The position numbers were made by a program, and so were the translations under genes. This document shows positions 2,925 to 17,313 of a stretch of DNA of 39,358 bases, one piece after another. The stretch covers positions 1 through 39,358 of the IMG/VR virus record IMGVR_UViG_3300042864_002105; one strand, given 5' to 3'. Position 1 is the stretch's first letter, and each line of letters begins with the position of its first letter. Origin of the DNA: a virus. The notes beneath the pieces were generated by a model. That model was not told the origin of the DNA and made no database searches. It saw nothing but the letters and a program-made list of their open reading frames with translations.

Positions 2925-3251
2925 ATGTTCAAATTTATAACAACCCTTTTACACAAAGACCTTCACCCTTTAAATGAGGCGGCAGTTCGAATCACAAAGA
3001 ACAAGTGGTTTGATTTTGCCCGTGGTATTCAAACATACCCAAGTGGCAAGTTTAAAGTTACAAGAATGAGAATGGTTGATGGGGAGAATGTTGTTGATGT
3101 TGAGGTAAAGATTACAAGCAAAGATAAATCCCCAAATAGAGTTGATGAATCAATTCAGTTCTTTATTCCAAAGAGTGAGTTGATTGAAAGACTCCACTTG
3201 ATTGGGATTAAAAACTATAAGCTCGGAACAGTTAAAATGAAATGGCTATGA
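2925..3251 (+). CDS. Hypothetical protein (108 aa), first gene of a three-gene cassette
   Basis: MFKFITTLLHKDLHPLNEAAV...; basic, predicted beta-rich, no recognised domain. It follows a host-type promoter element directly and its end overlaps the start of the next gene by 10 bases, so the three genes at 2925-3893 are co-transcribed and probably translationally coupled. Confidence 0.65.
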   Translation: MFKFITTLLHKDLHPLNEAAVRITKNKWFDFARGIQTYPSGKFKVTRMRMVDGENVVDVEVKITSKDKSPNRVDESIQFFIPKSELIERLHLIGIKNYKLGTVKMKWL

Positions 3252-6891: not shown

Positions 6892-7218
6892 ATGAAATAC
6901 CTAATAACAGAATCTCAACTTGATAATATAATCTTTAAGTATTTGGATAACCAAGACTTTATTCAGTTTGAAAGGAATGATAGTATATACTTCGTCAACT
7001 CGGAAGGTGACAGATATCCTCAAATTAGATATGATAAAGATGATAATTGGTGTATAATTTATTATGGATTAGTTAGAGAAATTTCTACCTTCTTTTCTAT
7101 GAAAGGTTCTGATTCTGAGTCACTTATAGGTAGATGGGTTGAAAATACCCTCCAAATGAAAGTCAAAAACATCTTTCGTGGTGATTACTACGAATTAACC
7201 GAGGTTGAGAATACCTAA
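6892..7218 (+). CDS. ITESQ-array paralogue 3 (108 aa)
   Basis: MKYLITESQ tag and IIFKYLDNQDFIQFERN; centre YFVNSEGDRYPQIRYDK; C-terminal EISTFFSMKGSDSES and GRWVENTLQMKVKN. Very like the paralogue at 7566 over its full length, a sign of recent duplication. TATTTATA is 4 bases upstream. Confidence 0.8.
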   Translation: MKYLITESQLDNIIFKYLDNQDFIQFERNDSIYFVNSEGDRYPQIRYDKDDNWCIIYYGLVREISTFFSMKGSDSESLIGRWVENTLQMKVKNIFRGDYYELTEVENT

Positions 7219-15478: not shown

Positions 15479-15504
15479 TAGAAGTTCTTTGAAAATATTT
15501 AAAA

Positions 15505-15628
15505 GGTGGGGTGGCAGACGAAAGTTAGATATATCCAAGTCAAACGTAGCTACGGTGTTTTTTAAACACGATGGATAAACGACAAGTAGAGCTCTAAGGG
15601 AATAAGTCGCTCTTATTCCTCCCCCACC
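15505..15628 (+). ncRNA. Structured RNA domain A
   Basis: Closed by GGTGGGG (15505-15511) with CCCCACC (15622-15628). Inside: TATCC/GGATA (15532-15536/15573-15577), GTGTTT/AAACAC hairpin (15557-15571) and GGAATAA/TTATTCC with a 7-base loop (15599-15619). The outer 7-bp stem and the last hairpin imitate a tRNA acceptor and T arm, but the T-loop consensus is absent. Confidence 0.5.
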
Positions 15629-15640
15629 GACCACATTATA

Positions 15641-15770
15641 GGTTGATTGGGGAATGATTATACCAATAGTTTGAGAGTGGATACCGACTGGTATAATCGG
15701 AGTTGACAGGTATTCACCTGAAGTAATGCCAATCGTAAAAGGGGTTGTCCACTCGACCATCTTCCCCTTA
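15641..15770 (+). ncRNA. Structured RNA domain B with a pseudoknot
   Basis: GATTGG (15645-15650) pairs with CCAATC (15729-15734). Within it GATTATACCA (15656-15665) pairs perfectly with TGGTATAATC (15689-15698). The loop of that hairpin carries GAGTGGA (15675-15681), which is complementary to TCCACTC (15748-15754) outside, a 7-bp pseudoknot. A CAGGT/ACCTG hairpin (15707-15720) lies between. The arrangement recalls ribozyme or riboswitch folds but matches none that I can name. Confidence 0.55.
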
Positions 15771-15781
15771 CCTAAAATACA

Positions 15782-15863
15782 GAGTGGCGCAGGTTGATGC
15801 TACCTTAGCGGGTAGACTGATACAGAGTAAGAAGAGGTGGGGGAAACCACTCATTAACCCACC
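15782..15863 (+). ncRNA. Structured RNA domain C with a pseudoknot
   Basis: GAGTGG (15782-15787) pairs with CCACTC (15847-15852); GGTGGG (15836-15841) pairs with CCCACC (15858-15863), interleaved as an H-type pseudoknot. A CTACC/GGTAG hairpin lies inside. It ends 6 bases before the first tRNA-like RNA. Confidence 0.5.
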
Positions 15864-15869
15864 CAATAT

Positions 15870-15949
15870 AGTCAGGTATGCGTAATGAGGATTGGTTCCA
15901 AATCCTAGAAATAGGTTGCCTTGGTGAGGTTCGATTCCTCGCCTGACTA
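15870..15949 (+). tRNA. tRNA-like RNA 1 (atypical)
   Basis: Acceptor AGTCAGG (15870-15876) pairs fully with CCTGACT (15942-15948); T8 and A9 are present; the T arm TGAGG/TTCGATT/CCTCG is canonical. Between them is AGGATT/AATCCT (15888-15893/15901-15906) with loop GGTTCCA, lacking U33, and only about 10 bases remain for the D arm. CCA inside the loop can pair with TGG (15922-15924). No anticodon can be assigned. CCA tail not encoded. Confidence 0.55.
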
Positions 15950-15956
15950 CAGAAGG

Positions 15957-16011
15957 TGTCAACCCCGAAACATTGAAAGAAAAAGTTGATGACAGCTTGG
16001 AAAGACAAGCA
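15957..16011 (+). other. Hairpin-rich spacer
   Basis: TCAAC/GTTGA and GCTTG/CAAGC hairpins lie between tRNA-like RNAs 1 and 2. The opening GTCAACCCCGAAAC resembles GTCAGCCCGAAAC at 17075-17087, so it may be a repeated processing or structural element. Confidence 0.4.
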
Positions 16012-16015
16012 ACAT

Positions 16016-16124
16016 AGTCAGGTGGCGGAATTGGCGCCAGTAGTAGTATCACGAGTTCAGTAATCCTCCCAATCGGACGTGAATCAAGGAGGTGACTATA
16101 CAAGTTCGATTCTTGTCCTGGCTA
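16016..16124 (+). tRNA. tRNA-like RNA 2 (oversized, Leu-like D arm)
   Basis: Acceptor AGTCAGG with CCTGGCT (16117-16123), a GGTGGCGGAATTGG D region as in tRNA-Leu and a canonical T arm ACAAG/TTCGATT/CTTGT (16100-16116). About 60 bases replace the anticodon and variable arms. GTAGT (16040 or 16043) can pair with ACTAT (16095-16099) right against the T stem; inside, TCACG/CGTGA and CCTCC/GGAGG interleave as a pseudoknot. It could be a tRNA with an insertion in the anticodon loop or a tRNA mimic. Confidence 0.55.
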
Positions 16125-16140
16125 CTAAAAATTAAAAGTT

Positions 16141-16260
16141 ATGAAAAAGATGTTTATTAATACACATAGGGAAATAGAAAAAATACTTCACCCATTTGAC
16201 CCGGTTGGATTTTACGTTCTAATGCCTTTTATATTAATCCTATTGTATATGTTCACATAA
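16141..16260 (+). CDS. 39-aa membrane protein between tRNA-like RNAs
   Basis: MKKMFINTHREIEKILHPFD then a hydrophobic tail, GFYVLMPFILILLYMFT, forming one membrane helix at the C-terminus. Preceded by an A-rich spacer right after tRNA-like RNA 2. Function unknown. Confidence 0.55.
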   Translation: MKKMFINTHREIEKILHPFDPVGFYVLMPFILILLYMFT

Positions 16261-16266
16261 AAAAAT

Positions 16267-16400
16267 AGTCAGGTGGCGGAATGGTAGACGCTAAGATGTA
16301 GTATTAGATAACCCACGGAACGGTTATATCATTGAGGTAAAATCCGATAAGTAAATTCCTCATAAACTAATACATACAGGTTCGAATCCTGTTCTGGCCA
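16267..16400 (+). tRNA. tRNA-like RNA 3 (oversized, Leu-like D arm)
   Basis: Acceptor AGTCAGG with TCTGGCC (A1-C72 mismatch, two G-U), D region GGCGGAATGGTAGACGC, T arm ACAGG/TTCGAAT/CCTGT. Eighty-four bases lie between D and T arms. ATAACC/GGTTAT (16308-16327) and TGAGG/CCTCA hairpins follow each other; CGGA in the first loop (16316-16319) can pair with TCCG (16343-16346). GTATTAG (16301) is also complementary to CTAATAC (16367), and GTAGT/ACTAA (16298/16366) could be an anticodon stem split by a 63-base insert. Confidence 0.55.
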
Positions 16401-16415
16401 CTAAACAATAGAAAA

Positions 16416-16865
16416 ATGAAACAATTTTTAAAACAACTATTTAATAAAAAGCAAAAATCAAAAACAATGGTAGGAAAAAAAGTAAAATTAGTAAGTGCTC
16501 CATCAGGTAAGCTGAGTTCACGCAATGGTTTTATTGGTACAGGACGTGAGTTTACTGTAATATCTCCGAGCGGACAATCAAATTCATGGAATATTGTAGA
16601 CCAATTCGGCAATGCACAAGGATGGGCATATGAATGGGAAATGGAAGGTTTTAAGTTAGGAATTAAAGAACTGGAAAAAGAACTTTCAGAGGCACAAACA
16701 AAACTTAACAACATCCAATTCAAAATTGATTGGTTGACGGAAACCGGTTCGGATGAATTTTCAGAAGATGAATTTAAAGTTTATCAAACTCTTAAATTAC
16801 TAGAAGATGAGAAACTTTCACGACTTGAAAAAAGTAAATTGATTGCTGAATTGATTAAGAAGTAA
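16416..16865 (+). CDS. Basic-headed protein with SH3-like and coiled-coil parts (149 aa)
   Basis: A lysine-rich start (MKQFLKQLFNKKQKSK), then residues about 19-75 with a small beta-barrel style (GKKVKLVSAPSG...FTVISPSGQSNSWNIVDQFG), then a long amphipathic helix (LEKELSEAQTKLNNIQFKID). The tRNA-like RNAs flank it closely. A nucleic-acid-binding role is conceivable but not shown. Confidence 0.6.
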   Translation: MKQFLKQLFNKKQKSKTMVGKKVKLVSAPSGKLSSRNGFIGTGREFTVISPSGQSNSWNIVDQFGNAQGWAYEWEMEGFKLGIKELEKELSEAQTKLNNIQFKIDWLTETGSDEFSEDEFKVYQTLKLLEDEKLSRLEKSKLIAELIKK

Positions 16866-16872
16866 AAATGCT

Positions 16873-16973
16873 AGTCAGGTGGCGGAATGGTAGACGCACT
16901 CCCCAAGTGAGAGAGCACCTCTAGAATCACTCAAATCCATAAGGTGTTACAGGTTCGAGTCCTGTCCTGACTA
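16873..16973 (+). tRNA. tRNA-like RNA 4 (oversized, Leu-like D arm)
   Basis: Perfect acceptor AGTCAGG/CCTGACT, D arm GCG...CGC with AATGGTAGA loop, T arm ACAGG/TTCGAGT/CCTGT. Fifty-one bases lie between D and T arms, against about 32 in an ordinary tRNA-Leu. AGTGA (16906-16910) pairs with TCACT (16927-16931) and CACCT (16916-16920) with AGGTG (16942-16946), interleaved. CTCAAAT (16930) contains a Leu CAA anticodon preceded by U, but no stem surrounds it. Confidence 0.55.
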
Positions 16974-16974
16974 C

Positions 16975-17167
16975 ACGTTCCGACTAATCATCGGATAGTA
17001 TACCCAATACGATGAGAAATAGATTGATTATCTATATGGGAACGTAGAATGTATAGGGAAAACATTCAGGTTTGTCAGCCCGAAACCCGCAAGGTTCAAA
17101 AGATTATTCCTAACTCAAGTAATTGAGGACAGCCACAACACCTGTTAGTTGGATAAAGGAGGGTGTT
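16975..17167 (+). ncRNA. Structured RNA domain D
   Basis: ACGTTCC (16975-16981) pairs with GGAACGT (17039-17045), enclosing TCATCG/CGATGA (16988-17015) and ATAGAT/ATCTAT (17019-17035), a three-way junction. Then come GAATGT/ACATTC (17047-17067), AACC/GGTT (about 17084-17096), CTCAA-GTAA-TTGAG (17114-17127, a GNRA tetraloop) and AACACC/GGTGTT (17137-17167). It is bounded by tRNA-like RNA 4 and tRNA-Ile. Confidence 0.55.
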
Positions 17168-17172
17168 AATAT

Positions 17173-17246
17173 AGTCGGATAGCTCAGGTGGTGAGAGCGG
17201 CACGCTTATACCGTGATGGTCGTGGGTTCAACTCCCACTCCGACTA
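17173..17246 (+). tRNA. tRNA-Ile(UAU)
   Basis: Full cloverleaf: acceptor AGTCGGA/TCCGACT, D stem GCTC/GAGC, anticodon stem GCACG/CGTGA (base pair 27-43 mismatched) with loop CTTATAC giving anticodon UAU, variable TGGTC, T arm GTGGG/TTCAACT/CCCAC, discriminator A. It reads the AUA codon, common in this AT-rich sequence. CCA not encoded. This normal tRNA next to the four odd ones shows that the odd folds are not a reading error. Confidence 0.85.
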
Positions 17247-17313
17247 CAACTGAAAAACTATAGTTCATATCTAACTCGCGTTTTGTTCAAGATATTTACT
17301 ATAAAACCTAACA

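Follow-up and report, generated by a model that had tools for sequence, protein, structure and literature searches.

The window, the whole stretch of DNA that was analysed, is a 39-kb phage contig of 39,358 nucleotides (IMG/VR record IMGVR_UViG_3300042864_002105). Four tRNA-like RNAs lie on its plus strand, followed on the same strand by a structured RNA and an ordinary tRNA. Coordinates of the RNAs include the discriminator base. Other loci are given L numbers; they are partial contigs, and counts of members taken from them are lower bounds.

RNA 1 (15870-15949) was located by descriptor match and family alignment. Its acceptor strand 15870-15876 pairs with 15942-15948, the discriminator A73 is at 15949 and the T arm occupies 15925-15941. 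It has a D stem of 3 bp, a D loop containing a conserved hairpin (GAGGANNGGTTCC) and no anticodon arm. RNA 2 (16016-16124), also matched by the descriptor, has homologues in L213 and L236-L239. It consists of an acceptor stem (16016-16022 with 16117-16123), a D arm at about 16023-16038, an inserted segment referred to here as the cargo (16039-16099) and a T arm (16100-16116); in the cargo, TCACG/CGTGA can pair interleaved with CCTCC/GGAGG. RNA 3 (16267-16400) has near-identical copies in L240-L243. Its acceptor (16267-16273 with 16393-16399) is followed by a D arm (16274-16291), a cargo (16292-16375) with an outer stem TATTAG/CTAATA, two hairpins and a possible loop-loop contact CGGA/TCCG, and a T arm (16376-16392). 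RNA 4 (16873-16973) lies in a hypervariable slot and comprises an acceptor (16873-16879 with 16966-16972), a D arm (16880-16897), a cargo (16898-16948) and a T arm (16949-16965). Homologues were found in L127 and L230-L233, and distant ones in L178, L185, L138 and L013.

Directly 3' of the RNA 4 slot is a conserved, structured non-tRNA RNA of about 200 nt (16974-17172), reading CACGTTCYGACTAATCATCRGATAG ... TATTCCTAAC ... GGACAGCCA. It directly follows a tRNA-like RNA in many phages, where it marks the slot, and was also found in L028, L079, L096, L114, L115, L213, L219, L243 and L245. In an alignment of 10 sequences, 18 of its 27 predicted pairs had changed on both sides with pairing kept; no Rfam family matched it. 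The array ends with an ordinary tRNA-Ile(TAT) at 17173-17247. Upstream of RNA 1, positions 15507-15860 are structured and apparently non-coding, with long closing stems GGTGGGG/CCCCACC and GGGGAA/TTCCCC. This region is about 96% conserved in L213 and L236 although the adjoining genes differ.

Detection of the tRNA-like RNAs

ARAGORN and an Rfam scan at gathering scores called the tRNA-Ile at 17173-17247 and none of RNAs 1-4. Once filters were relaxed, the tRNA model aligned the full length of RNA 4 with the middle skipped, scoring 42.1 bits against a gathering cut-off of 29. A descriptor of a 7-bp acceptor and a 5-bp T arm matched RNAs 1, 2 and 4, the tRNA-Ile and one overlapping spurious site, and gave no matches in shuffled windows. 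RNA 3 was missed because of a single acceptor mismatch that is absent in its relatives: the first pair is A·C in the window and A-U in L240, L241 and L243.

The four tRNA-like RNAs described in the first-pass annotation were thus confirmed by sequence, by the descriptor and by the model alignment of RNA 4, and the ordinary tRNA-Ile placed after them by ARAGORN and Rfam. The Leu-type D region that had been assigned to three of the four was present in RNAs 2-4 and absent from RNA 1. The proposed pairing of AGTCAGG with the 3' end held by descriptor for RNAs 1, 2 and 4, but is mismatched at the first pair of RNA 3 in the window.

Extent of the class

RNAs 1-4 are members of a large virus-borne class that is apparently undescribed. 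IMG/VR was scanned with the 16-mer AGTCAGGTGGCGGAAT, giving at least 120 matches, nearly all with one chassis, and with the 3' half of the chassis, again giving at least 120 matches. The chassis has the order AGTCAGG-TGGCGGAATNGGTAGACGC, a variable insert, then ACAGGTTCGAATCCTGTCCTGACTA. Near-fixed in sequence are the acceptor (AGTCAGG/CCTGACTA), the T arm (ACAGG-TTCGAAT-CCTGT) and A73. Leu-type D arms are common on it and other types also occur; in some members (L031, L088, L116) the D loop holds an additional insert. At least 277 distinct members, mostly about 70-145 nt long, were extracted from the fetched loci; some measure only 69-80 nt. At 65% identity their cargos fell into at least 203 clusters, of which 166 had a single member, and a rough Chao1 estimate put the number of cargo families at about 800. 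The constancy of the acceptor is not merely a product of the search, since among 50 candidates of any acceptor that were neither bait matches nor ARAGORN calls, 24 had exactly AGTCAGG and several more had close variants. Acceptors of ordinary tRNAs in the same arrays are diverse. One phage (L088) encodes more than 25 ordinary tRNAs plus five tRNA-like RNAs.

The RNA 1 family was matched on 22 contigs, and 16 distinct members were aligned. They are 75-85 nt long, have the conserved D-loop hairpin and lack an anticodon arm. A further tRNA-like family, in which the acceptor is of TGTNAGG type, the discriminator is G and the core (GGCAGACA..CCACTCGTCTCGTGGGCGCTGA...GGTTGACCACAAAGCCGGC) is conserved, was seen at L048 5302-5469, L106 836-992, L129 587-742 and L142 12256-12431.

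Among 84,980 species genomes of bacteria and archaea, 20 contigs matched the 5' pattern. About 7 of these contain a true member; most of the 7 are MAG contigs of Bacteroidota (Sediminibacterium, Flavobacterium, Chitinophagaceae) or else are very small. Judged from these few MAGs and from promoter boxes (below), hosts of the carrier phages are probably Bacteroidota. DNA searches of annotated phage genomes gave no match to RNA 1-type sequences, none to RNA 4 taken together with the RNA that follows it, and none to 15490-15960. The chassis query returned short tRNA pieces only and led to the cultured Tenacibaculum phage pT24 (LC168164.1, L234). This phage has two near-identical RNAs annotated tRNA-Undet (2790-2868 and 3157-3235), each with an anticodon arm of a 3-nt loop, and a 'tRNA-Pro' without U33; it is a possible laboratory model. 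A PMC literature search, with most subscription papers and preprints outside its scope, found no such RNA class described.

Absence of an anticodon arm

The 7-bp acceptor, the D arm and a T arm with a TTCRANY loop, all expected of a decoding tRNA, are present, and many members score 34-45 bits with the tRNA model (cut-off 29). The anticodon arm expected of such a tRNA, with a 5-bp stem and a 7-nt loop containing U33, is lacking in the class. Such an arm was possible in 2 of 121 parsed Leu-type members (1.7%), in 82% of 351 ordinary tRNAs from the same phages and in 0.7% of shuffled sequence. The earlier statement that RNAs 1-4 have no normal anticodon arm is therefore borne out, and extends, at near shuffle level, to the parsed Leu-type members of the class. 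Where ARAGORN called members, it gave scattered identities (Ser, Pro, Glu, Tyr, Ile, Val, '???'). The candidate assignment as decoding tRNAs is not supported, for want of an anticodon arm in the Leu-type members; the tRNA-like RNAs would be unable to decode.

Folding and covariation

Cargos were compared with dinucleotide shuffles. The 255 cargos fold better than their shuffles (mean MFE z -0.60; 36% below -1), and interleaved helices reached p ≤ 0.05 in 16.5% of them, against 5% expected. The interleaved pairings noted at first in the window are significant in RNA 4 (p = 0.020) but not in RNA 2 (0.054) or RNA 3 (0.40). The example that had been given, AGTGA/TCACT with CACCT/AGGTG in RNA 4, survived in one half. 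By hand reading of the alignment, distant homologues favour GAG/CTC and CACCT/AGGTG over AGTGA/TCACT. CACCT/AGGTG becomes CAGCT/AGCTG in L185 and is unrecognisable in L138 and L013. The pseudoknot with AGTGA/TCACT was rejected, as the homologues prefer another pairing.

Covariation in relatives, which had been put forward as a check, was found for several elements. In the RNA 1 family, AGTCAGG/CCTGACT in the acceptor is replaced by ATCTGAG/CTCAGAT, which still pairs, and the T stem covaries. A six-member cargo family has one helix with three pairs changed on both sides, which beats slid controls. In another family the 3' cargo hairpin runs from AGTG/CACT through GGTG/CACC to GCTG/CAGC. The helices of RNAs 2 and 3 are almost invariant among homologues and covariation is therefore uninformative for them. 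To judge from these comparisons of sequence, the structure of the tRNA-like RNAs is under selection.

Exchange of cargos between phages

One slot (slot 1) is common to 11 related phage contigs and holds seven unrelated cargos. It lies between terminase/structural genes and a tape-measure-like gene. The 500 bp upstream are about 90% identical, as is the downstream side (one contig diverges there). Within the slot, the 3' end made of T arm and acceptor is 98% identical, and mean cargo identity over length is 27%. A second slot has the same pattern (L040/L118 versus L069/L084/L111). Pairs of contigs that have the same cargo in slot 1 or in slot 2 are 93-100% identical in the cargo and 87-95% in the flanks.

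The RNA 4 slot of the window also exchanges its cargo (L213, L243, L028, L245, L115, L096 and others). The close relative L213 has a different cargo there, L243 has the cargo of the window's RNA 3, and L028, with slot flanks as in L243, has yet another member inside. Similarity of RNAs 2, 3 and 4 to their distant copies stops at the RNA ends. This was seen for RNA 2 in L238 and L239, and for RNA 3 in L240-L243, where copies are 93-95% identical and the likeness is essentially confined to the RNA. Among pairs with similar cargos from different loci, 124 of 146 had no detectable flank homology, which indicates that the whole RNA moves as a cassette. The tRNA-like RNAs are modular and are exchanged as cassettes, a conclusion that we hold with high confidence. 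Exchange at the slots could reflect a recombination hot spot and not selection on cargo function.

At the array end, the position of the window's tRNA-Ile(TAT) is occupied in L213 by a tRNA-Glu(TTC) (6951-7023), with ends and flanks shared. Ordinary tRNAs are thus also exchanged in these arrays.

Expression and processing signals

Sixteen members, most of them belonging to the two slot families, have a Bacteroidota-type TAnnTTTG box whose end lies exactly 4 nt upstream of A1, and A1 is therefore probably the transcription start in those members. A few independent cases have the box near A1 at similar spacing. In total, no more than about 20 of 283 RNAs have it near A1. A uniform promoter belonging to the class itself was accordingly rejected as a candidate; the rarity of the box indicates that most members are array genes, and those without it probably rely on an array or operon promoter further upstream. 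T predominates at base -1 and A at base 73; base 74 is C in 270 of 277 members, and a full encoded CCA is usually absent. These are normal features of tRNA substrates.

Coding, antisense and neighbour analysis

When cargos of unequal length were paired, the net difference was divisible by 3 in only 4 of the 45 pairs; such differences break the frame, and the cargo is therefore not coding. For 239 cargos, the longest exact antisense matches to segments of their own contig were no longer than those to unrelated phages. Neighbouring genes were annotated with Pfam, PHROGs and PADLOC and were diverse, with no common protein, defence or anti-defence partner and no recombinase family in common. With Rfam, run on about 50 loci, cargos matched no family apart from the general tRNA model.

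Proposed function and alternatives

The reading that we propose, and to which we give even weight for and against, is that of a tRNA chassis with exchangeable structured cargos, used to counter host factors. Acceptor stem, D arm, T arm and A73 are kept, and the cargo takes the place of the anticodon arm; in RNA 1 the D loop bears it instead. Transcription would start from a Bacteroidota-type promoter of the RNA's own or would run through a tRNA array, and host RNase P, RNase Z and CCA enzyme would trim and stabilise the product. The chassis would serve maturation and stability. The cargo would be the effector and, as a folded RNA, would bind or block some host factor, e.g. a defence protein or toxin, and its exchange would reflect an arms race between phage and host. 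Unrelated cargos that replace each other under one promoter and move horizontally are expected of counter-defence genes. Against this reading, the neighbouring genes share no defence or anti-defence partner, and the almost invariant acceptor suggests recognition of its sequence, for which a chassis with a structural role alone would have no need. Taken by itself, a counter-host function of the cargos is a serious candidate, which these comparisons leave somewhat short of an even balance. More tentatively still, phages, probably of Bacteroidota, may carry a shared and horizontally exchanged repertoire of several hundred folded RNAs on a tRNA chassis, each against a particular host defence or factor, which would amount to a natural library of inhibitory RNAs.

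Under the main rival, the RNAs would act as decoys, drawing in host enzymes or toxins that recognise the acceptor end or the elbow, and the cargo would do no more than keep the decoy off the ribosome or block its release. Conservation is highest in the acceptor, T arm and A73, and candidate readers include toxSAS, nucleotidyltransferase or acetyltransferase toxins, RNase P/Z and EF-Tu. Published toxins read the acceptor stem, as FaRel2 does (PMC11559606), and phages answer with tRNAs (PMC10264068, PMC11555353). However, an end decoy has no use for hundreds of distinct cargos, conserved internally and exchanged at a single slot, and the RNA 1 family can replace its acceptor by a different paired sequence. 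Decoys account for the conserved ends and not for the conserved and exchanged cargos, and we consider them unlikely. The first-pass annotation had offered such a role, and it is compatible with the data except in two of the targets named: anticodon nucleases are unsupported because the anticodon loop is absent, and one single synthetase because D arms other than Leu-type occur.

It is doubtful that the elements matter mainly as DNA, with the acceptor inverted repeat as an exchange site, or as punctuation for RNase P/Z, the cargo being a passenger. Exchange units do end at the acceptor repeats, an ordinary tRNA of the window's array is exchanged too (Ile versus Glu), and members are located between protein genes. 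No recombinase family is common to the neighbours, however, and cargos that are more closely conserved than their flanks, fold above chance and covary are not passenger DNA.

A role as translation factors is improbable. The RNAs would be charged and, as the tRNA part of tmRNA does, would reach the ribosome with no codon involved, or they would supply a different user of aminoacyl-tRNA. Bacterial LeuRS needs no anticodon, and the frequent Leu-type D arm and A73 would suit charging. Like the phage RNAs, tmRNA joins a tRNA part without an anticodon to pseudoknots, and phage tmRNA lies near tRNA-like RNAs at three loci. Against this, the same chassis carries other D arm types, the alanine signal G3-U70 is absent, cargos conserve no reading frame and the tmRNA model gave no match to these RNAs.

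Very little probability falls to antisense or immunity RNAs like P4 CI RNA, whose cargo would pair with the phage's own genome. A polymorphic small RNA at a fixed slot does recall immunity alleles, but the 239 cargos showed no antisense excess over unrelated phages, and cargo sequence is mostly within helices.

It is highly improbable that the RNAs are tRNAs interrupted by tiny structured introns, as had been suggested at first. An extra structured insert does sit between the tRNA halves. RNA 1 and many relatives, however, are only 69-85 nt long, too small for an anticodon arm plus an intron; anticodon arms occur near the level of chance (1.7% against 0.7% in shuffles), and members have no conserved insert ends and no common splice motif. 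GTAGTAT, which had been noted in both RNA 2 and RNA 3, is not a conserved element, being GTAATAT in L213 and GTTGTAT in L236.

Decayed tRNA genes or attachment-site remnants, which the tRNA-end look of the 3' half and the common use of tRNA genes as integration sites would recall, have practically no chance of being correct, since both halves still pair with compensatory changes, copies 93-98% identical stand in unrelated contexts and some members have their own promoter box; pseudogenes are refuted for the class by covariation and mobility.

Current tRNA finders skip members or mislabel them with random amino acids, and a large class of RNA may thus be hidden in phages. If the cargos are active, as the reading of chassis and effector holds, they would be a reservoir of natural RNA inhibitors with a ready expression chassis and a route to their host targets. 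Alleles of a slot differ only in cargo, which makes RNA-based arms races directly testable.

Comparison with known systems

Ornate structured RNAs of viruses include the phage RNAs GOLLD and ROOL, which are large single families. Plant-virus 3' tRNA-like structures are likewise viral, but form the 3' ends of RNA genomes and have a pseudoknotted acceptor. The Bacillus cereus pseudo-tRNA tRNA-Other is also a tRNA-like element outside translation; it is one chromosomal element embedded in a larger regulatory RNA (PMC3399842), whereas the phage class is a family of swappable cassettes. Phage tRNAs that evade tRNA-targeting defences (PMC10264068, PMC11555353) are phage-encoded, occur in arrays and plausibly belong to the same conflict. 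They decode and have anticodon loops, in altered form, which the tRNA-like RNAs lack.

YrlA (RF02553), a bacterial Y RNA with a tRNA-mimic module, is likewise non-coding and uses the elbow of D arm and T arm. In YrlA the T arm precedes the D arm, a Ro-binding stem is expected and there is no acceptor; the phage class has the normal order acceptor-D-cargo-T-acceptor, with the acceptor its most conserved part. The only YrlA-like matches were two other RNAs at L038 2752-3052 (minus strand), in which the T arm precedes the D arm; they scored 34.6 and 25.3 bits, below the cut-off of 69. Next to them lie one of the tRNA-like RNAs, a tRNA that is atypical in its D-loop insert, and a GOLLD RNA (1477-1884, 298.8 bits).

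In tmRNA (RF00023), too, the tRNA-like part lacks an anticodon arm and has a pseudoknot-rich RNA instead. The phage RNAs differ in being far shorter and in having no tag reading frame and no G3-U70; pair 3-70 is U-A and members gave no match to the RF00023 model. True phage tmRNA genes were present on contigs with tRNA-like RNAs at L088 5724-6218, L129 1088-1533 and L079 553-939.

The layout is identical to that of the engineered tRNA scaffold: there, an RNA of interest is inserted at the anticodon stem-loop, acceptor, D and T arms are kept and the tRNA part gives processing and stability (PMC3753655). The phage class likewise keeps the elbow and acceptor and has an independent folded RNA for the anticodon arm. 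The scaffold is a laboratory device, whereas the phage class is natural, mobile and highly diverse. By analogy, its chassis may do the job of the engineered scaffold.
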